The notes under the pieces were generated by a model. That model did not search any database and had not been told where the DNA came from. It worked only from the letters and a program-made list of their open reading frames with translations. Source: a virus. Taken from it: a DNA stretch of 24,093 bases. Below, in pieces: positions 756 through 21,169 of this stretch. Every line of letters starts with the position of its first letter. Within the stretch, counting starts at the first letter, position 1. The translations under genes were made by a program, and so were the position numbers. The DNA lies in the IMG/VR virus record IMGVR_UViG_3300048067_000013, positions 1 to 24,093 of that record; one strand, written 5' to 3'.

Positions 756-2627
756 ATGGACGCATATCAACAGTACATACACAAGTCACGGTACGCTAGG
801 TACTTGCCAGAGGAGCAACGCCGGGAGACTTGGGAAGAAACAGTAAACAGGTACATCAACTTTTGGGTAGACCGTGGACACCTCAACGACTTTGACGTAT
901 CAGAGATATTCAAGGCAGTCCATGACCTAGACGTAATGCCCAGCATGAGGGCGCTGATGACTGCAGGAGACGCACTGGAGCGTGACAACGTAGCAGGGTT
1001 TAACTGTAGCTACCTACCCATAGACCACCCTAAGGCGTTTGACGAACTCATGTACGTACTCCTGTGTGGTACAGGCGTGGGCTTCAGTGTCGAGCGGCAG
1101 TACATACAGAAGTTACCGGAAGTTGCGGAGGAGTTTCATGCAACCGATACAGTTATTAATGTTGCGGATTCAAAGATCGGATGGGCGAAATCGTTTAGGG
1201 AACTGGTATCACTGTTGTATACAGGTCAAGTTCCCCAATGGGACATTAGTAGAGTACGACCTGCAGGTGCCGCACTCAAGACTTTCGGAGGTCGTGCAAG
1301 TGGTCCAGAACCTCTCGTTGATCTCTTCAAGTTTACAGTTGAACTCTTTAAGACAGCATCTGGACGAAAACTTAGCTCCATTGAATGCCACGATCTTTGC
1401 TGTAAGATTGCTCAAATCGTCGTCGTCGGAGGAGTCAGGAGAAGCGCCCTGATCTCACTGTCCAACCTAACGGACGACAGGCTCCGGAGATGCAAGCATG
1501 GACAGTGGTACATAGATGAACCCCAGCGTGGTCTGGCGAATAACTCAGCGTGTTACACAGAGAAGCCAGACTTTGAAGCCTTTCTCAACGAGTGGACTAG
1601 CTTATATGAATCTAAATCTGGCGAACGAGGTGTCTTTAGCAGAGTGGCAAGTCAAAAGCAAGCTGCAAAAAATGAACGTAGAGATGCTACCTACGATTTT
1701 GGAACTAATCCATGCAGCGAAATCATCCTCAGACCCTACCAGTTCTGCAATCTTTCAGAGGTTGTTGTTAGGCCACAGGATACACTCGCAAGTCTCAAAC
1801 GAAAAGTTAGGGTTGCAACTATCCTTGGGACTCTTCAGGCCACCCTCACCAACTTCCGATATCTCAGAAATATTTGGAAACTAAACACACAGGAAGAGGC
1901 ACTGCTAGGTGTATCCTTGACAGGCATCATGGACCATCCAATGCTGTCAGGTAGAGGAGACAAGGCCAAGCTGAAGAAGTGGCTTACGGAGATGAGGGAG
2001 GAAGCAATTGAAGTTAACGAGCAGTGGGCAGAGAAACTGGGTATCAACGCTTCTACCGCTATTACTGCGGTCAAGCCTAGCGGCACTGTTAGTCAGTTGG
2101 TCGATAGCGCTAGTGGTATCCATCCTCGTTATAGTGCACAATACATACGCAGAGTACGTGCAGATGCTAGAGATCCACTTTGTAGCGTCCTAGAGGCCGC
2201 AGGAGTGCCTGTGGAGGACGATGCGATGTCACCCAGTACTAGGGTATTCTCCTTCCCTATTGCGTCTCCTGAGGGCGCTGTGACAGCCTCAGACATGGGT
2301 GCTATGGAACAGTTGGATCTGTGGGAGATATATCAGGACTACTGGTGTGAGCACAAGCCGTCCATGACTTGCTACTACAGGGACAACGAGTTTCTGGAGG
2401 TGGGACAGTGGCTGTACAACAAGTTTGATAAGGTCAGTGGTATCTCTTTTCTGCCTTACTCAGACCACACGTACCAGCAGGCACCTTATGAGCCTGTGGA
2501 CAAGGCCACCCTCAAGTCGCTACAGAAGGGCTTTCCGACCCAGATTGATTGGGACATTAATGAAGCCTCTGATATGACTGAGGGTAGCCAGCAGTTAGCC
2601 TGTACAGGTAACAACTGTGAACTATGA
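756..2627 (+). CDS. nrdJ: Class II (adenosylcobalamin-dependent) ribonucleotide reductase
   Basis: A 623-residue enzyme predicted to reduce ribonucleotides to deoxyribonucleotides in the host cytoplasm, feeding phage DNA synthesis. By comparison with the monomeric Lactobacillus-type enzyme, the key residues are present. Cys84 in FNCSY and Cys331 in FCNL would be the reducing pair. Cys320 in NPCSEI would be the thiyl-radical cysteine, with Asn318 and Glu322 in the active site. The C-terminal swinging pair is Cys616/Cys621 (CTGNNC) with the four-residue spacing of that enzyme class. LLCGTGVGFSVE (102-113) and AVKPSGTVSQL (438-448) are further conserved motifs. It is shorter than the roughly 740-residue bacterial enzyme but has no gap at a catalytic site, and no intein. 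The absence of a beta subunit gene next to it agrees with class II. Its stop codon overlaps the convergent - strand gene. Codon choice looks patchy along the gene. Confidence 0.95.
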   Translation: MDAYQQYIHKSRYARYLPEEQRRETWEETVNRYINFWVDRGHLNDFDVSEIFKAVHDLDVMPSMRALMTAGDALERDNVAGFNCSYLPIDHPKAFDELMYVLLCGTGVGFSVERQYIQKLPEVAEEFHATDTVINVADSKIGWAKSFRELVSLLYTGQVPQWDISRVRPAGAALKTFGGRASGPEPLVDLFKFTVELFKTASGRKLSSIECHDLCCKIAQIVVVGGVRRSALISLSNLTDDRLRRCKHGQWYIDEPQRGLANNSACYTEKPDFEAFLNEWTSLYESKSGERGVFSRVASQKQAAKNERRDATYDFGTNPCSEIILRPYQFCNLSEVVVRPQDTLASLKRKVRVATILGTLQATLTNFRYLRNIWKLNTQEEALLGVSLTGIMDHPMLSGRGDKAKLKKWLTEMREEAIEVNEQWAEKLGINASTAITAVKPSGTVSQLVDSASGIHPRYSAQYIRRVRADARDPLCSVLEAAGVPVEDDAMSPSTRVFSFPIASPEGAVTASDMGAMEQLDLWEIYQDYWCEHKPSMTCYYRDNEFLEVGQWLYNKFDKVSGISFLPYSDHTYQQAPYEPVDKATLKSLQKGFPTQIDWDINEASDMTEGSQQLACTGNNCEL

Positions 2628-7262: not shown

Positions 7263-8369
7263 TTAAGCTGTGGCGCCTGTGCTGCCTGTGCTACCACTAG
7301 CGTCATCTCCACCACCTACACCAAATAAATCAAAGATGTCTCCAAAGATTCCACCGCTTTTTTGTGCACCAAAGAGTCCACCTAAAACGCCAGTACCAAG
7401 GCTACCCAACAGATTAGCCTGAGCTTGCTCTGCTACCAACCTAGCCTCAAGACCACTCATCATTGTCTCACCGTACTGACCAGCGCCAAACAACTGTCCC
7501 TGCTGTTGCATCTGCTGATAAGGCATCATAGCCTGCTGTAGCTGCATCATCTGAGTCTGTGGTAGGTACGCAGCACCCATAGAACCAACACCTAAGTTTT
7601 GCTGTGCCGCCAGTTGTTGCAAGTCTGCCTGAGACAACTGACTACCCATGCCTGTAAACATCTGTGCCTGCTGTGCCAACTGTGCTTGTTCTGCCTGTGC
7701 TTGGCCCATAGCCTGTAGCATAGCTGAGTTTCTAGCTTCTGCTTGTGCTTTACCAAACGCTAGTTGCTCTGGTGTTCCACCAAACTGTGCAGTCTGTACA
7801 CCTAAGCGTCCCTGTGCAGCCAGACGCTCTTCCATTGCCTGAGCCTGTCGTTGCTCCTCAGGAGACTGTGCAGCCCTAATGCGCCCGTAGATGTCTTGCT
7901 CACGTTGAGCCATGTCAGTGTCGCGCAAGTCTGTCATCATGCCTCTACCCAAGCCAAACGCTTGTCCTGCAGCCGTTCGTCCTGCTTGTTGACCAAAAGG
8001 AGTACCAGCAAGCTGAGTTTGAGCACGAGTAAGCATAGACTGTTGGAACGCTTTCTCTTCGTCAGAAAGACCCATGCTTGTGCCTACGCCAGTAAAGTTA
8101 TCTTCGTCATCAAACTGAGGAGTTGCACCAAAGCTACCACCCATTGTAGACGCTACAGTAAACGGCTTAAACTGAGACATTCCTACGGCTTGTTGTGCTA
8201 ATCCGTAAGCACCGGGAACGTACATTTCCTTTCCTGAACGAGGATCAGTAAAGTAAGTTCCTGCTAATGACTGTTCACCAATGTCACTAAGACGGTTCAT
8301 AGCGCTTGCCGTAAGCAAACCGCCTCCTACACCGCCTATGCCTAATAAGGCTTTTAACCAATCTTCCAT
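7263..8369 (-). CDS. Gln/Met-rich putative internal virion protein
   Basis: A 368-residue protein that is unusually rich in Gln, Ala, Met and Gly. It opens with a hydrophobic glycine-rich segment (LLGIGGVGGGLLTAS, residues 9-23), followed by a middle with long Gln-rich helices (QAQAEQAQLAQQAQM, then QMMQLQQAMMPYQQMQQQGQ). It closes with a second Gly-rich hydrophobic part and a Gly/Ser/Thr tail. Both hydrophobic glycine zones could interact with membranes, as expected of a small ejected core protein, but this is inference. The ATG at 8369 shares its A with the TGA of the upstream gene, and GGAGG lies nine bases upstream. No known catalytic residues are visible. Confidence 0.6.
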   Translation of the reverse strand: MEDWLKALLGIGGVGGGLLTASAMNRLSDIGEQSLAGTYFTDPRSGKEMYVPGAYGLAQQAVGMSQFKPFTVASTMGGSFGATPQFDDEDNFTGVGTSMGLSDEEKAFQQSMLTRAQTQLAGTPFGQQAGRTAAGQAFGLGRGMMTDLRDTDMAQREQDIYGRIRAAQSPEEQRQAQAMEERLAAQGRLGVQTAQFGGTPEQLAFGKAQAEARNSAMLQAMGQAQAEQAQLAQQAQMFTGMGSQLSQADLQQLAAQQNLGVGSMGAAYLPQTQMMQLQQAMMPYQQMQQQGQLFGAGQYGETMMSGLEARLVAEQAQANLLGSLGTGVLGGLFGAQKSGGIFGDIFDLFGVGGGDDASGSTGSTGATA

Positions 8370-8602
8370 CAGTAAGTACCTCCGTCAATCGTCCCTGTAG
8401 ACAGAGTTCCTGTAAACGTCAAGTTAGGTATAGTAACAGTACCTGTAAACGTAGGTGAAGCTGTGTTCGCCTTGGTCGCAACAGCAACCGCAATAGCGTC
8501 AAACTCTGTGTTAAATTCAGTGCCTTGAATAATCTTGCCAGCATCTCCAGAAGGCAAACTATCCTTAGCAGCAAAGTTAGTTGTCTTTGTATAGTTGCTC
8601 AT
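8369..8602 (-). CDS. Small fibre-like structural protein ending in GTIDGGTY
   Basis: A 77-residue protein. Residues 7-42 (TNFAAKDSLPSGDAGKIIQG, then EFNTEFDAIAVAVA) resemble an N-terminal segment common in marine phage fibre proteins. The rest is a Thr/Gly beta-repeat (SPTFTGTVTIPNLTFTGTL) ending GTIDGGTY. That ending is almost the same as the C-terminus of the 366-residue fibre protein at 17910-19010 (GTINGGTY). The start is an ATG overlapping the upstream TGA by 4 bases (ATGA). No strong Shine-Dalgarno site is seen, so translation probably depends on coupling. It is likely a virion component attached to the tail. It is too short to be a full fibre and may be a truncated or minimal paralogue. 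Confidence 0.7.
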   Translation of the reverse strand: MSNYTKTTNFAAKDSLPSGDAGKIIQGTEFNTEFDAIAVAVATKANTASPTFTGTVTIPNLTFTGTLSTGTIDGGTY

Positions 8603-10164
8603 AGTGTTTTACCCATTAGTGCTAATACGTTAATTTCTTGGAGAGATAAAGCAAAACCGTTTATTTCTGACTCAAGACCAATAGTAATAATAGTGCCAGC
8701 GCCTGTAGTGTTAACAGGAGGTCTGGTTGTTGTTGCTCCTCCGGTAAACTCAGCAACTGTGTATTCTGAAGCTGCTTCGTTAAAGTAGAAGGGAGTCTGA
8801 TTACCTACCGTAAACTCTTGTGTACTGTACGATGTACCAAAGTCGTATGCCCACTTCATAAACACAGTAGCGCTGTTAGCACCAACCAGTGTAGGGCGTA
8901 GCTTTTTTAGGAACTTAAGTTTAGATGGATCACCAAACGTCAATCCGGGACTGTAGTACCTAAAGCGGTAACTGGAAGTCCTAATCGTACCTGAGTCGTT
9001 GTACTCATCTGCGTACCCTGCGTACTCACCTACGCCGTCCACAGTACCTACAAGGAGCGTACCATCGTTCTTTCTCTCGTAAGACTTAAACGGTGCAGAG
9101 GTCCAACGTGTGACTCTGTAAGCGTTGTTCTCTAGTTTACCCTTGAGATCAAAGCAGTACGTAGTTGATTTGTCTGGAAACGTAATGAGGTAAAAAGAGT
9201 TCTCAGGGCTGTACACAGACGCCGTTGGTGCAGTCCGTGTTTCAATCAAACTAATAATCTCAGATTTTATGTTTAAACTTAAGTCGGACAGCGGTAGTGA
9301 CTTTTCTTGTATAGTCCTACCAAAACTCCTCAAGCCGTTCTGAGACATAAACAACACATCAGTACCTATGTGCTGCACAGAGTTTCTACAGATGCACCCA
9401 ACGCCAGCAACGGTATCAGCCAAAGCCATAGTTGCTGGACTTACGGCGTTAGCGTACACGATGATACTGTGCTTACCTAAGATCAGCAGAGCGTTGTTGT
9501 GAGCAACCAGTGCCCGTACTTCGTCGTACCCATCAGGCCAAGCCTTAGATACATCTATAGAACCACTGGAGCCACCAGTGAAGTCTGTTCCTATCAGCAG
9601 GTCAGACCAGTATATAGTCTGTGTGTCTGCTGCGTTATCTACGATCCACAGTCTACCGTAAGCTGCTAGAGCCTCGTGGCAGTAGAAGTTACTATTAGTA
9701 GAACTGCCTGTTGCTGTGCCAAACGTCCTGAGTCCTGTCGCGTTGTCGTACACCAGAGGCTCTTGTCCACGCTGAAAGAAGTACGCCTTATCGTTAAAGT
9801 TTACAATCTTCCAGTTGTCTGCGCTGATCGTGTAAGAACCCGGAGTAATATCTGTCAGCGTGTCATCAGGATTAGTCGTCTGTGCAGTCTTAAATATCTT
9901 GTTGTTACCAGTGACAAAGACTTCCTCGTTACCTGCGTCATCGTAAAAGTGGTGCAGCTTAACAGCGTAATCAGCGCCCAGAGGTGTGTTAACAGCAGTC
10001 AACAAGTCTACACCCTTACGTGCAGCAATACGCCCACGCTTGTCAATCACAGCGTTATCAGCGATTTCAGCAAAAGACGGATCCTGTGCAATCGGAGAGT
10101 CTTCTGTGTTGACTCCTTTAAACGCAGGAGCAACTAAGTTAATACTTTGTAGCGGCTGTGCCAT
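8599..10164 (-). CDS. Putative tail nozzle / tail tubular-type protein
   Basis: A 521-residue, beta-rich protein. The N-terminus (APAFKGVNTEDSPIAQDPSF, then DNAVIDKRGRIAARKG) matches the usual start of podovirus tail proteins that follow the head-tail adaptor. The body has propeller-like strands, including WPDGYDEVRALVAHNNALLI followed by GKHSIIVYAN. By position and look it corresponds to the T7 gp12 or P22 gp10 role, forming the distal tube of the short tail. A family assignment would need a profile search. The ATG at 10164 has AGGAG eight bases upstream, eleven bases after the adaptor gene ends. No signal peptide or membrane segment is present. Confidence 0.65.
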   Translation of the reverse strand: MAQPLQSINLVAPAFKGVNTEDSPIAQDPSFAEIADNAVIDKRGRIAARKGVDLLTAVNTPLGADYAVKLHHFYDDAGNEEVFVTGNNKIFKTAQTTNPDDTLTDITPGSYTISADNWKIVNFNDKAYFFQRGQEPLVYDNATGLRTFGTATGSSTNSNFYCHEALAAYGRLWIVDNAADTQTIYWSDLLIGTDFTGGSSGSIDVSKAWPDGYDEVRALVAHNNALLILGKHSIIVYANAVSPATMALADTVAGVGCICRNSVQHIGTDVLFMSQNGLRSFGRTIQEKSLPLSDLSLNIKSEIISLIETRTAPTASVYSPENSFYLITFPDKSTTYCFDLKGKLENNAYRVTRWTSAPFKSYERKNDGTLLVGTVDGVGEYAGYADEYNDSGTIRTSSYRFRYYSPGLTFGDPSKLKFLKKLRPTLVGANSATVFMKWAYDFGTSYSTQEFTVGNQTPFYFNEAASEYTVAEFTGGATTTRPPVNTTGAGTIITIGLESEINGFALSLQEINVLALMGKTL

Positions 10165-10175
10165 ACGTCAGGCTC

Positions 10176-10823
10176 CTACGGAGTGTACCAGATGGTTTCT
10201 TCAGGGTGCTTCTGTGCGTCCAGAGCAATCGCGTCAGACAAAAACTTATCAGCAATACCAAAGTACTCAGGTGCTGATGTACCGCCTGTCTCGCCACGCT
10301 CACGAGCTAACAGAGCTATCGCTAGGTGTATCACGGGTTGACTAGGTATAATTAGTTCATCTGTGTCAGCACTCAACTCAGGGTTTCTAAGCGTACAGTT
10401 GAATCTTAGGTTGTACACACCGTCAGGCTTAGGATAAATGTCTACCTGAGTGTCACCACTAGAATCTACTCCGTTGTACGTGTAGTACTCAGGTGAGCCG
10501 CTGGGTGGTGATTGGTTCAAGTACTTATCGTTAAACCAGTGTTGAGTGTTGTACTGCATAAAAAGGTTTGAGGTGTCGTTAATTACGTCTAGTACCTTGA
10601 TCTTGTTTTGTGACCCAGTAAGTACGTAGTTAAAAATATCAGCAGACGTAGTTACAGTTAGGGTAGTCCTTAGTGCTGACCAATCCCAAGCATCCTCTAT
10701 CATCTTCTTAGCGTCGTTTACAAAATCACCCGTTAGTTTACTGTAGGTTGTATCTTGTACACTAGACACCTCGTTTTCACGTAAGCGCCTGAGGACGTTA
10801 TTTACTAAGTTTAAATATGTCAT
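10176..10823 (-). CDS. Putative head-tail adaptor (T7 gp11 / P22 gp4-like role)
   Basis: A 215-residue protein starting MTYLNLVNNVLRRLRENEV, an N-terminal helix typical of phage adaptor proteins that dock under the portal. After it come the helix FVNDAKKMIEDAWDWSALR and a beta sandwich-like middle (TLTVTTSADIFNYVLTG and following). The C-terminal helix (PVIHLAIALLARERGE) leads into a tail ending ETIWYTP. A TTG would extend the frame to 10841, but the ATG at 10823 fits the family start and lies one base beyond the stop of the preceding gene. A GAGG twelve bases upstream is the only Shine-Dalgarno candidate. Its partner would be the portal at 22037-24088 and the nozzle-like protein encoded next. 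Confidence 0.7.
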   Translation of the reverse strand: MTYLNLVNNVLRRLRENEVSSVQDTTYSKLTGDFVNDAKKMIEDAWDWSALRTTLTVTTSADIFNYVLTGSQNKIKVLDVINDTSNLFMQYNTQHWFNDKYLNQSPPSGSPEYYTYNGVDSSGDTQVDIYPKPDGVYNLRFNCTLRNPELSADTDELIIPSQPVIHLAIALLARERGETGGTSAPEYFGIADKFLSDAIALDAQKHPEETIWYTP

Positions 10824-10824
10824 C

Positions 10825-13800
10825 TTATGCCATGCCCTCAAACAAACTTCGTTTAATTATGTTGTCTAGTTCAGCCATGTAGTCCTTCTGTGCTGGTGCT
10901 GGAGGCTCTGGTACAGCCTGTGGTGTGTAACTTATGCCAGCTAAGAACGGATTAAACATTCCACCGCCGCCGCCACCGCCGCCACCGCCGGTTTCTGGAG
11001 GAGGAGGAGTAACGCCAACACAGGTGCCTTCTGCGTCCATCGACGAACCTTCAGGACACACTGTACAATCAGGGTAGTCAGTGGCTCCGTTGTCACAGGT
11101 TACTTCTTCACACTCGTCCCTTGTTTCAGCAAACGAACCGTCAGGACATTCTACCCAGCCACATTCTAAAGGATGAGCAGCGGCGTACTCTGGATCACTA
11201 CAGGGTGTAGGTTGGTCACAGTCTCCCAACGTAGGAGCCATAGTCCCGTCATCACACTCTACCCAACCACATATCAAAGCATTAGCAGAATCAGTGCAGT
11301 CTACTTCTTCACACTTGTCAGTCTCAGGGTTTATGCGTTGACCTGAAGGACACGTAACGCAGTCAGGGTAGTCTGTAGCTCCATTTTTACAAACGGGGTC
11401 TACACAATCAGGGCTTGATGAGGCAATCTGATCGTTGTATGCACAAGGAGCATCACAGAATATTTCTCCGTTTTGGGCTACAAACTCAACTTCACCATCA
11501 TCACACGGTCCCTGACAAAGCTCGTTACCTTCTGCGTACTGTGGGTCTTGACAAAGTGTTTCTATAAGAACACACTCATCGTAACCCTCTGGTCTGTCGT
11601 AGAGGTCTTTACACGGACCGCATTCACCCTCTTGTTCGTAATTTGTGGCATTAGGGTCTTGACAGGTTACTTCTGGTTCTATGTCTTTACACGGCGCGTC
11701 GTCTGGTCCGTACCCTTTTGCCTCATCAGCACACAGTTGCGCTATAGAAGTACACTCATCGTACCCTTCTGGTTTGTCATAGCCTTCGTCACAGCCTTCT
11801 TGTTCTTTTATTCCTTCACAGGCGTATCCGCTTTCTGAATACTGTGACCTTCTAACAACGCCGTTAGATGTCGGTTCACAGTTACTAAGAACAGTTGTAC
11901 ACGGTAGTCCTCTAGTTGGTTTACATTCGCCGTTTTCATCGTACACCCCAGAAACTGTAGACATAGGCGCGTCGGAACAACTTGGAGCGTAAAAAGCAGG
12001 AATCTCCATTGTACATTCCTCGCCCGGAGTTCCTGTGTCTGTGTCTGGGTCGTCTATAGGAGTGTAACCAAGACTAGGATTACAAGGATCATAAGAATAC
12101 GACTGACCTTCACTATCAACTACTATACCGTCTTTGTCGGGGTCATCGGGAGCCCACTGCTTTGTTTCTAATTCGTCTCCTTCTTCACACGTCTCGTCAG
12201 TTCCGGGGTCTTCTCCTTTGCTTACACATTTTTTCTCGCCTTCATCAAATTCAAAACCACTCTTACAAGGACCACAGCCACCATCGTCACCTTCAGGCGG
12301 GTCTGCGTTTTCATCGTTACACACTAACTCAGGAGCCGGTGTAAAGTACATAGAACTGGGGAGGTCGTTCGCACACGGGTCATAGGTAATTGAATCACCA
12401 CCGTAGAAAAAAGCACCATCTTGGTCAGTATCTTCAGGTAAATACTCAGGTGTATTACCGTTTGTACATTGACCTTCACTGACACTAGTACAGAAGCCTT
12501 CTGTGTTAAATTTTCCTTGGTTTGTAGTTGTAGAGTCTCCGGGATATTTATTAGGCTCCGCAAAACACGGTTGACCCGGTGTTACACACTCTCCACCAGC
12601 GATACCACCTCTGCGTACTTGATCCGGGTTGGGACACTTATCGTTATTGCCACCGTCCTTTAAATTCTCATTACAGTCGTCGTTTATGTGTTGATCGGGA
12701 GTAGTGCCATCCCCACAGTCATTACAGTCATCAAAGTCTACTGCATTGTTGTCACACGTATCGTTACCACCATCAGAACAATCGCCATCTAAAGGCTCTT
12801 CTTCTCCTGCTTTATCGGTTCCATCAGGACATACACATTTTTCTCCGTCCCAAACACCGTCTCCTATGCACTGTGGATCTTGTATTACATCACAGTCGTC
12901 AACGATTCCTTTAATTATACCGCCTGTTGTTTCTTGACCGCTTGAGTTTTCACCGCCAGTACAGTTTACGTATCCAGCGGTGACACAAGCATCTTGATTT
13001 TCGTTAAAGTAGTCTTCTTCTACACACTTAGTTTCGTCAAATGGGTCGCCACAAGATTCCCCTACCTTTACGTACTTACCTTCTCCGCAGTCTTGGTAGC
13101 CACATCTTTCAAAGTTGTCTGCATTAATCTCGCTTACATCTTCTGGGCAGTCTTCGTCAACAGGTGCAATAGGAAGGAGGTTTGTAATCTCTTCTTCTAG
13201 TTCTCCCCAGATCCAAGTAGCAGCATAAACACCAAAGATTCCTTTGAGCCAATCAACGATATCATTAACTTTAGTATCAGTTGCATCACCAAAAATTTCT
13301 TTAACTTTTTTAAGGACGGCGTCTTTCCAACCCTCTAGTGTTCCCGCAGGGTCTTCCATAAAATCACCGATGTCTTTTCCGATGCCCTTGAGAAACTCCT
13401 CAAAGTCGCGGTAGGTGCCTACATCAATTTCACCCATGCCCGGAAGTTGTGGTAAACCGGGTATACCTATTAAAACATTAAAGTTTACACAGTCTTTCCA
13501 GCAGTACGTGCCTTTATCTGGGTCTGCCTCTTGACAGGTTTTTAAGTCTTGACACTTCTCAGGAATACCTGCTTCTGCAATTTTGTCCCCGATTTTCTTA
13601 ATACATTCTAGAGGGTTTCCAGCGCAGTCTGTAATTACGTCTTTAAAGTCGTCGTAGATGCCCTTAGCAGTGTTAGCAATGTCCTCGCCTACTTCATCTA
13701 CATAATCTTGGAAAGACTTATCTATGCACTCTGGGTCATTTGGGTTAGCGTCACAGTCTACAACGCCGTCATCACCAGTATCACACTTTCCTGCTGAATC

Positions 13801-14556
13801 TACTGTTCCGGGAACTGACCCTTCAGTACACTCAGCACCTACAATAAAAGTACACTCTCCGTTTTCTATTTTTCCCGGTATTCCTACGGCATACTCACAA
13901 TCAGTACCGTCTGCAGGTTCTTCTGTTTCGTTACAGTTACCGTTTGTATCGTATTCTCCTTGCTTTCCGTCATCAGTTTGACACGGCTGACCCGCTGTAG
14001 GTCTTACGTCCCACCAGCTTCCGTCGTAACCACTGTTGTTGAGTATTCCTGCGAGAACTACGCTTCCTTGGAATTTTTCGTTTTCGCCACATTGAATTTC
14101 ATTAGCATTGGTAAGACATTTGATGCTGCCTCTAACTTCTTCTATGGCTTCGTCGTCGTATCCCTCTGCCTTAAGTATTTTTACTATGTCGTCCCAAGTC
14201 GTCGGGGTAGTACCGCCGTAAACAGTGTCTCTGAGGTAGTCGGAGTAGGCTGTTGACTCAGTTTCGCCATCGTCGTCGTACCCATAAACAGTATGTGGAT
14301 TACCGTCAGCATCTACAGCATAGAGGTCGTTTACTCCGTCACCGTTTAAGTCGCTTGCCTGCCAATCAACGGCACCTTCTGGCAAAGGCCCAAATATCTG
14401 TCTAAGGTATGCCTGTAGTGTTTTGTATTCTGGATTAGACGATCCCTGAGGACCAACGGTGTTAAAACCAGCAGCAATATACTGTTCAAGGAGTTCAACA
14501 ACACTTAAGTCGTCATCCAGCTCGTCGCCGTCTATAGAGTCAAAAGGATCAGCCAT
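10825..14556 (-). CDS. Giant cysteine-rich phage protein with internal repeats
   Basis: A 1243-residue acidic protein with about 80 cysteines, nearly all between residues 147 and 356 and between 470 and 1179. Residues 357-469 lack cysteine and are helical, with a hydrophobic patch (IVDWLKGIFGVYAATWIWG). Calcium-loop-like DxDxDG motifs occur at about 69-78 (DLNGDGVNDL), 709-714 and 805-810; the last two are each followed by a YDPC motif. Internal repeats include PEGYDEC (929-935 and 989-995), NGATDYPDC (1058-1066 and 1156-1164) and CGWVEC (1096-1101 and 1132-1137). The end has a Pro run, ten glycines (1190-1199) and a helical tail. It sits between the holin-like genes and the adaptor, so it is probably virion-associated or released at lysis. 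I do not recognise a family. EGF-like spacing is not exact. The ATG is 3 bases after the preceding stop. Confidence 0.75.
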   Translation of the reverse strand: MADPFDSIDGDELDDDLSVVELLEQYIAAGFNTVGPQGSSNPEYKTLQAYLRQIFGPLPEGAVDWQASDLNGDGVNDLYAVDADGNPHTVYGYDDDGETESTAYSDYLRDTVYGGTTPTTWDDIVKILKAEGYDDEAIEEVRGSIKCLTNANEIQCGENEKFQGSVVLAGILNNSGYDGSWWDVRPTAGQPCQTDDGKQGEYDTNGNCNETEEPADGTDCEYAVGIPGKIENGECTFIVGAECTEGSVPGTVDSAGKCDTGDDGVVDCDANPNDPECIDKSFQDYVDEVGEDIANTAKGIYDDFKDVITDCAGNPLECIKKIGDKIAEAGIPEKCQDLKTCQEADPDKGTYCWKDCVNFNVLIGIPGLPQLPGMGEIDVGTYRDFEEFLKGIGKDIGDFMEDPAGTLEGWKDAVLKKVKEIFGDATDTKVNDIVDWLKGIFGVYAATWIWGELEEEITNLLPIAPVDEDCPEDVSEINADNFERCGYQDCGEGKYVKVGESCGDPFDETKCVEEDYFNENQDACVTAGYVNCTGGENSSGQETTGGIIKGIVDDCDVIQDPQCIGDGVWDGEKCVCPDGTDKAGEEEPLDGDCSDGGNDTCDNNAVDFDDCNDCGDGTTPDQHINDDCNENLKDGGNNDKCPNPDQVRRGGIAGGECVTPGQPCFAEPNKYPGDSTTTNQGKFNTEGFCTSVSEGQCTNGNTPEYLPEDTDQDGAFFYGGDSITYDPCANDLPSSMYFTPAPELVCNDENADPPEGDDGGCGPCKSGFEFDEGEKKCVSKGEDPGTDETCEEGDELETKQWAPDDPDKDGIVVDSEGQSYSYDPCNPSLGYTPIDDPDTDTGTPGEECTMEIPAFYAPSCSDAPMSTVSGVYDENGECKPTRGLPCTTVLSNCEPTSNGVVRRSQYSESGYACEGIKEQEGCDEGYDKPEGYDECTSIAQLCADEAKGYGPDDAPCKDIEPEVTCQDPNATNYEQEGECGPCKDLYDRPEGYDECVLIETLCQDPQYAEGNELCQGPCDDGEVEFVAQNGEIFCDAPCAYNDQIASSSPDCVDPVCKNGATDYPDCVTCPSGQRINPETDKCEEVDCTDSANALICGWVECDDGTMAPTLGDCDQPTPCSDPEYAAAHPLECGWVECPDGSFAETRDECEEVTCDNGATDYPDCTVCPEGSSMDAEGTCVGVTPPPPETGGGGGGGGGGMFNPFLAGISYTPQAVPEPPAPAQKDYMAELDNIIKRSLFEGMA
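10960..10989 (-). repeat. GGN triplet run coding ten glycines
   Basis: Ten consecutive glycine codons, mainly GGC and GGT (CCACCGCCG-type on the + strand), code for residues 1190-1199 of the cysteine-rich protein. They follow a PPPPET linker and come before the helical C-terminal tail. A simple triplet run like this is prone to length change between relatives and probably acts as a flexible hinge. Confidence 0.8.
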
Positions 14557-14559
14557 AGC

Positions 14560-14937
14560 TTACTTACCACCCTTTAGCTGCATCAGCTTGTCAGCACCAC
14601 GTATACCAAAGCTGGCTGTGACTGCAACGTACAAAAGATATTGATACCACTCAGGCAGCTTCCCTAGTTCTGCAAAGGCAACGCCTACGCGACCAATGAT
14701 ATCAAGATCGTTCATACCTACGCCCCACATAATAGCTATTACAGGCGCACTCAGGACTACTGTGAACCACTCGTCTTTCCACGAGGATGCACTAGCCTGT
14801 GCCATGTGCTGTTCCCAAGATGCTGTGTTCTGTATTACTTGCATCTTAGCTACGTGTTTAGCTTGTGACTGCTCGTGACGATTGCTCATCCAAGTCTTAG
14901 CAAGTCCAGCAATAGGACTAATAAGGGCTTGCCACAC
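14560..14937 (-). CDS. Holin-like membrane protein, GTG start
   Basis: A 125-residue protein. Residues 1-56 are a helix with basic and Gln residues (SQAKHVAKMQVIQ) leading to SSWKDEWFTVV. Two hydrophobic segments follow, at about 57-74 (WFTVVLSAPVIAIMWGV) and about 96-113 (EWYQYLLYVAVTASFGIRG), and then a short Lys-rich tail. This pattern is frequent in marine phages and is often labelled holin-like; function is not proven. The start is GTG at 14937, three bases from the stop of the 57-residue gene, with AGAGG ten bases upstream. An internal ATG at residue 17 would remove a conserved-looking N-terminus. With the two genes before it, it forms a run of three membrane proteins, probably the lysis cassette. 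Confidence 0.65.
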   Translation of the reverse strand: MWQALISPIAGLAKTWMSNRHEQSQAKHVAKMQVIQNTASWEQHMAQASASSWKDEWFTVVLSAPVIAIMWGVGMNDLDIIGRVGVAFAELGKLPEWYQYLLYVAVTASFGIRGADKLMQLKGGK

Positions 14938-20944: not shown

Positions 20945-21169
20945 CTATGAGGTTTCCCGCGTGGTTTGCCCAGCCTTCTCGTGTTCACGTACCCACTTCA
21001 TGTGCCTGCCGGGGAAATCCCCAGAGGAACCATCAAGGATATGTGGAGTTGCTGATACAATCTTTGTAGCGTTAGCACCACATCCGCACCTACTGGATGT
21101 AGTCCCTGACTCTACAAATTCTTCAAAGGTATGTCCGTTAGTACAACGAAAGTCAAATACTTTAATCAT
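20945..21169 (-). CDS. Small zinc-ribbon protein (FmdB-like)
   Basis: A 74-residue protein. The N-terminal half is a zinc ribbon: Cys9 and His13 (FRCTNGHTFEEF), then Cys28 and Cys30 (RCGCG), in the FmdB-like pattern of C-x3-H or C with a second knuckle. The second half (HILDGSSGDFPGRHMKWVRE) is polar and helical. FmdB-like ribbons are common in phage head operons; their role is unproven. The ATG at 21169 overlaps the previous gene by 8 bp with only a weak GAAG-type Shine-Dalgarno site, so coupling is likely. The spacing Cys28-x-Cys30 is tighter than the usual CxxC and may affect metal binding. Confidence 0.7.
   Translation of the reverse strand: MIKVFDFRCTNGHTFEEFVESGTTSSRCGCGANATKIVSATPHILDGSSGDFPGRHMKWVREHEKAGQTTRETS

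Follow-up and report, generated by a model that had tools for sequence, protein, structure and literature searches.

We propose that the 80-cysteine protein encoded on the minus strand at positions 10825-14556 of the window, by which we mean the whole 24,093-base virus fragment analysed here, is a tail-associated and modular host-contact protein that is oxidised after lysis and docked by its C-terminus. This is the best reading of the data, with a probability of roughly 0.55, and we infer its virion and adhesin steps; taken separately, membership of the virion is probable, and a host-contact or adhesin role may be put at about even odds. A disulfide-stapled virion component is favoured because of the evidence for paired cysteines, the hypervariability of the protein and the co-segregation of its C-terminal tail with a candidate partner protein. 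An earlier note on this DNA had offered three ideas, namely a virion adhesin that becomes disulfide-bonded once lysis has occurred, a calcium-stabilised stalk and a metal-binding protein; the first is, in part, the best supported, receptor binding being putative. What was not visible to that reader is that the gene occupies an interchangeable slot that is sometimes filled by Cys-free proteins (products of this position are called slot proteins below).

The open reading frame of 1243 residues was correctly placed in the earlier note, which gave about 80 cysteines (there are exactly 80) and left the strand unstated. Cysteine makes up 6.4% of the protein, which also contains 155 Asp, 120 Glu and only 3 His and has a pI of about 4.05. 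The other late proteins checked in the window have 0-1% Cys, so this richness is specific to the slot gene, and the sole other window protein above 1% is the ribonucleotide reductase (2.3%). It is not a chance reading frame, as relatives occur in 20 contigs, the flanking gene order is conserved and intact frames recur. Judged by eye from the N-termini, the protein appears to lack a signal peptide.

Several parts can be recognized, all on the minus strand. The N-terminal domain (residues 1-145; 14122..14556) is Cys-free, exchangeable between relatives and modelled as a beta/alpha fold with pLDDT mostly 82-91 across residues 51-140. It is followed by a first Cys segment with 10 Cys (residues 146-281; 13714..14121) and by a conserved core (residues 282-470; 13147..13713) that is helical and carries the signature DCV...IPGLPxLPGM. 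This core is the one domain common to most Cys-rich members and to two Cys-free ones, L093 and L111. A second Cys arm (residues 471-1189; 10990..13146) consists of tandem modules with the patterns CxxC-x6-16-C, C-x8-14-C-x3,4-C-x8-12-C, NGATxxPDC and DxDxDG..YDPC. A poly-Gly hinge (residues 1190-1199; 10960..10989) marks the point at which tail type switches between the window and locus L044, and beyond it lies a C-terminal tail of type T1 (residues 1200-1243; 10828..10959) that ends in QKDYMAELDNIIKRSLFEGMA and is the proposed docking peptide. The repeated cassettes reported earlier are in place, with PEGYDEC at residues 929 and 989, NGATDYPDC at 1058 and 1156 and CGWVEC at 1096 and 1132, as is DPNATNY at 967-973 (11638..11658). 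Three D-x-D-x-DG loops had been claimed; two are DTDQDG (residues 709-714; 12415..12432) and DPDKDG (residues 805-810; 12127..12144), and the first is instead a D-x-N-x-DG calcium-type loop at 69-74 (14335..14352). A calcium-stabilised stalk is possible for the D-x-D-x-DG modules. In L005:1-2838, tandem Cys-module repeats (C-x-DGTTKK-x-DAEGTNC-x-EY) suggest recent expansion.

The statement that the function is undescribed holds in every library searched. Neither Pfam nor PHROGs gave a significant match to the whole protein, and Pfam, PHROGs and Foldseek revealed no recognised adhesin, beta-helix or S74 domain. Searches with tblastn of 50,697 phage records, using the whole protein, the core or one Cys-free slot protein as query, returned nothing useful, and no relative of the slot protein was found in 84,980 prokaryote genomes of GTDB. 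The Cys arm had no match in a PDB sequence search. A structure model of residues 1-517 (mean pLDDT 67) gave no Foldseek match below E 0.001 in BFVD or PDB. A PDB match of the core profile to polyubiquitin (28 positions, E 6e-4) was judged spurious, as no stretch passes alone. Relatives were found in IMG/VR, where the whole protein matched 20 contigs, the core 31 contigs and a wider core profile only one more. The nozzle gene was used as an anchor to reach further loci: at least 558 contigs carry it, 80 were examined, and wherever an examined contig extended far enough, the ORF directly preceding the adaptor was read as the slot.

The genes around the slot are conserved in order. The Cys gene adjoins a tail adaptor-like gene (phrog_10775; 10176..10841, minus strand) directly downstream, beyond which lies a nozzle or head-closure-like gene (phrog_5107 and phrog_578; 8599..10164, minus strand). 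In most loci the upstream neighbour is a gene for a small, probably membrane protein, holin-like by inference (phrog_2524; 14560..14937, minus strand, directly upstream in the window). DNA identity to relatives typically lies at 74-98% as far as roughly the start codon of the Cys gene; homology with many of them ends near this codon and resumes near the stop codon. Within the gene, single blocks are 80-95% identical, with recurrent edges near bases 808, 1510, 1786, 1912, 2305 and 2880. For example, the window and L009 share a major capsid protein (98%), p155 (100%), holin-like protein (100%) and adaptor (91%) with slot proteins only 35% identical, and the slot proteins of the window and L016 are 28% identical beside holin-like proteins at 99% and adaptors at 94%. 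By these alignments the Cys gene is a cassette slot with block-wise module swaps, and its product combines a hypervariable body with a conserved attachment end, as tail-fibre-type proteins do. No reverse transcriptase, such as a diversity-generating retroelement (DGR) would supply, was apparent among the ORFs of the window, itself a fragment.

The slot is not always filled by a Cys-rich protein. Fourteen distinct complete slot ORFs are without any Cys; examples are L072, L076, L110 and L119, which have long acidic or Thr/Gly repeats. In L093 and L111 the core can still be recognised although it contains zero Cys. Since many of the Cys-free proteins share the C-terminal peptide type of the window protein, the constant feature of the slot is the end peptide and not the Cys arm, and since Cys-free slot proteins exist at all, disulfides are not essential to the role of the slot. 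Three loci (L028, L029 and L030) have tandem slot ORFs, a Cys-rich one of 1092 amino acids and a Cys-free one of 226 amino acids with a T1-type tail.

A preference for even Cys numbers is an accepted indicator that disulfides are used (PMC3177088). In a first pass the Cys count was even in 24/24 complete relatives, with other residues even in 6 to 15 of 24. The wider set comprised 36 distinct complete ORFs with at least 10 Cys; after leaving out L112, whose frame is disrupted, all 35 intact ORFs (18-84 Cys) were even, with other residues even in about half. Two counts depend on the choice of start: L047 has 39 Cys from stop to stop and 38 from its ATG, the extra Cys preceding the start codon, and was counted as even, and L043, whose first ATG is far inside the ORF, has 52 or 50 Cys and is even both ways. 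These 35 are not 35 independent draws, as relatives share ancestry; about 20 different count values occur, so that many gains and losses have preserved parity. In L112 (2957-5534) the Cys-rich slot gene is split across two frames, by a sequencing error or because the gene is broken.

Parity also holds for parts of the protein. The number of Cys upstream of the core is even in 29/29 listed relatives, and in the core alignment the two columns of the pairs 67/79 and 138/152 either both have Cys or both lack it in 22/22 rows. The Cys columns 56/83 are invariant, and 30/37 co-occur in 21/22, the exception being L007, where the second Cys lies two columns along. Both the even-Cys bias and the paired gain and loss that mark a disulfide protein are present, and very probably the Cys modules become fully disulfide-paired. 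One alternative is that the protein binds or stores zinc or another metal via its Cys clusters, an idea suggested by 80 Cys, many of them in CxxC, and by D-x-D-x-DG loops that may bind calcium. However, the protein is strongly acidic and has just 3 His, the Pfam search gave no zinc-finger or metallothionein profile match, and Cys numbers change by twos: 18 of the 35 counts are 4n and 17 are 4n+2, not the multiples of four that Zn(Cys)4 sites would give. Paired gain and loss together with this split point to disulfides rather than Zn(Cys)4 sites, and we regard metal binding as very improbable.

An indication of where the protein might attach comes from its C-terminus. We distinguished two types of tail, T1 (DYMxxLNxxIxxSLFxGM) and T2 (GDPQLLxRxEFPITDYLAGLF), and in 52 loci examined how they relate to the genes nearby; the tail-type regexes were composed after viewing the sequences, and the ANOSIM on partner sequences is independent of the partner regex. 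Tail type was associated with the N-terminus of a 368-amino-acid protein encoded at 7263..8369 on the minus strand (ANOSIM R 0.858), 2.5 kb downstream of the slot gene with three genes between, and this protein, of N-terminal type A in the window, is the proposed docking partner. The three intervening genes lacked the association (adaptor -0.01, nozzle 0.01, s77 0.07), as did the holin-like gene (0.05), and R was 0.30 for the rest of the partner and 0.61 for the next gene. Type-B partners are found in 28/28 T2 loci versus 1/24 T1 loci. The nozzle tree requires 12 changes each for tail type and partner type, and among 9 phylogenetically independent pairs the partner tracks the tail in 8-9 and does the opposite in none (sign p 0.004-0.008). 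For example, L044 has a nozzle and an adaptor 98% and 96% identical to those of the window and a nearly identical arm up to the poly-Gly hinge, after which it carries a T2 tail, and its partner is of type B. As Cys-rich and Cys-free T1 loci alike have type-A partners, the rule tracks the tail and not Cys content. L076 is the single exception, combining a T1 tail with a partner of type B; the last residues of this tail, GMFTGNIE, resemble those of the T2 locus L078 (GMMTGNIV). From this co-segregation we infer that the T1 tail would physically dock to the type-A partner N-terminus.

Tail fibres and spikes carry Peptidase_S74 as a chaperone domain. This domain is found C-terminally in several partner relatives (E down to 5e-11) and not in the partner of the window, for which the structure model is poor (pLDDT 50). 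Loci L060, L020 and L086, alongside window positions 7263-8369, provide examples of the two-type N-terminus swap and of S74 relatives. The slot protein is co-inherited with the partner, whose own virion status rests on gene order and on the S74 domain of its relatives. Another possibility is that the slot protein never joins the virion and is released at lysis, for example to act as a decoy or in exclusion, in which case the tail motif would serve another interaction. The slot gene adjoins a holin-like gene, and a late-operon location alone is no proof of virion membership. We nevertheless consider release distinctly unlikely, since the partner that changes with tail type is a late protein encoded downstream, has S74-bearing relatives and lies beyond adaptor and nozzle genes that exchange freely.

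The partner could also be internal, as S74 occurs too in families named DNA ejection protein: partner relatives match one of these (phrog_4287, 5.5e-12). This would fit an internal or ejected slot protein that aids the passage of DNA across the envelope. In that case the core, and the hydrophobic middle part seen in Cys-free slot proteins, would act on membranes, the C-terminal tail would pack the protein onto a partner of the ejection type, and oxidation of the Cys arms would take place in the virion or periplasm. Some core members do have weak profile similarity to tape measure proteins (phrog_1535, best 9.7e-07 for one member and 8e-4 for the L093 core; phrog_991 in 9/14), and hydrophobic stretches rich in Gly and Ala occur in Cys-free slot proteins (hydropathy 2.0 in L119). 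These matches are local, weak and partly compositional, though, and the phage appears short-tailed; the best tape-measure match of the window protein itself is phrog_991 at 0.034, and its core is only mildly hydrophobic (maximum 19-residue mean 1.03). Conserved flanks around a hypervariable gene that swaps modules are seen more typically with host-contact proteins, and we consider an ejection role unlikely, if the most credible of the alternatives.

Under the preferred reading of a docked host-contact protein, the slot protein would be synthesised in the cytoplasm without a signal peptide, and a C-terminal peptide of about 44 residues behind the poly-Gly hinge would attach it to the short-tail particle, provided that this peptide matches the N-terminus of the proposed partner (7263-8369). 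Oxidation would follow lysis, and the Cys-rich arms, stapled by disulfides and perhaps binding Ca, would then form a bead-like extension in contact with the host surface. Phages may diversify the protein by exchanging whole modules; as the Cys of each module are even in number, none would be left unpaired by shuffling, and such an 'even-Cys module' grammar, if true, makes shuffling safe. More tentatively, and at somewhat less than even odds, the slot may represent a new class of virion protein in a common uncultured phage group, in which bodies as unlike as a disulfide chain with 80 Cys and acidic repeats without any take each other's place behind a partner-matched C-terminal dock.

Although the cytoplasm in which phage proteins are synthesised is reducing, the data suggest a strategy by which phages assemble host-contact proteins from cassettes locked by disulfides, usually a solution of animal extracellular proteins. 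The Cys modules do resemble EGF-like, TNFR and furin-type modules in their CxxC-x6-16-C spacing, acidity and Ca-type loops, but the six-Cys EGF pattern is not kept throughout and Pfam gave no EGF-family match (best TNFR_nem, E 5.2). Fibres and spikes with Peptidase_S74 (PF13884) share this domain with relatives of the proposed partner; unlike them, the slot protein lacks S74, and the end by which it appears to dock is the C-terminus, not the N-terminus. Unusually Cys-rich structural proteins are also found in Agrobacterium phage Milano, whose virion is extensively disulfide-bonded, which stabilises the particle (PMC10811340, PMC10491603). In Milano, a myovirus, Cys amounts to 2.1% and is spread across numerous structural proteins, with many inter-chain bonds in the mature particle, whereas the slot protein is one protein at 6.4% beside late neighbours at 0-1%, with a modular, swapped body. 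If the proposal is true, it is more disulfide-dense than any phage virion protein in the literature searched. That literature, which mostly excluded subscription journals, yielded no description of a single giant module-swapped Cys-rich phage protein. Co-segregation of tail and partner across unlinked intervening genes is a clean evolutionary test pointing to a docking pair, which could be tested with two short peptides in a group without a close cultured member in the records searched.

The source appears to be an uncultured marine or estuarine podovirus-like phage with a short tail, and the cultured-phage collection searched held no close member of its group. HMO-2011-type marine podoviruses (PMC9038755) likewise have a ribonucleotide reductase followed by a reverse-strand structural block. 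Portal similarity to them is distant, at only about 25% identity. HMO-2011 has no relative of the slot protein, and the gene before its tail protein encodes a 161-amino-acid hypothetical protein. The ribonucleotide reductase of the window (756-2627, plus strand) is about 62% identical to the nearest listed phage enzymes, from Roseobacter and Lentibacter phages, several of which are annotated as B12-dependent. The window also encodes a 74-amino-acid protein (20945-21169, minus strand) with a C-x-C zinc-ribbon-like motif that looks FmdB-like by eye.
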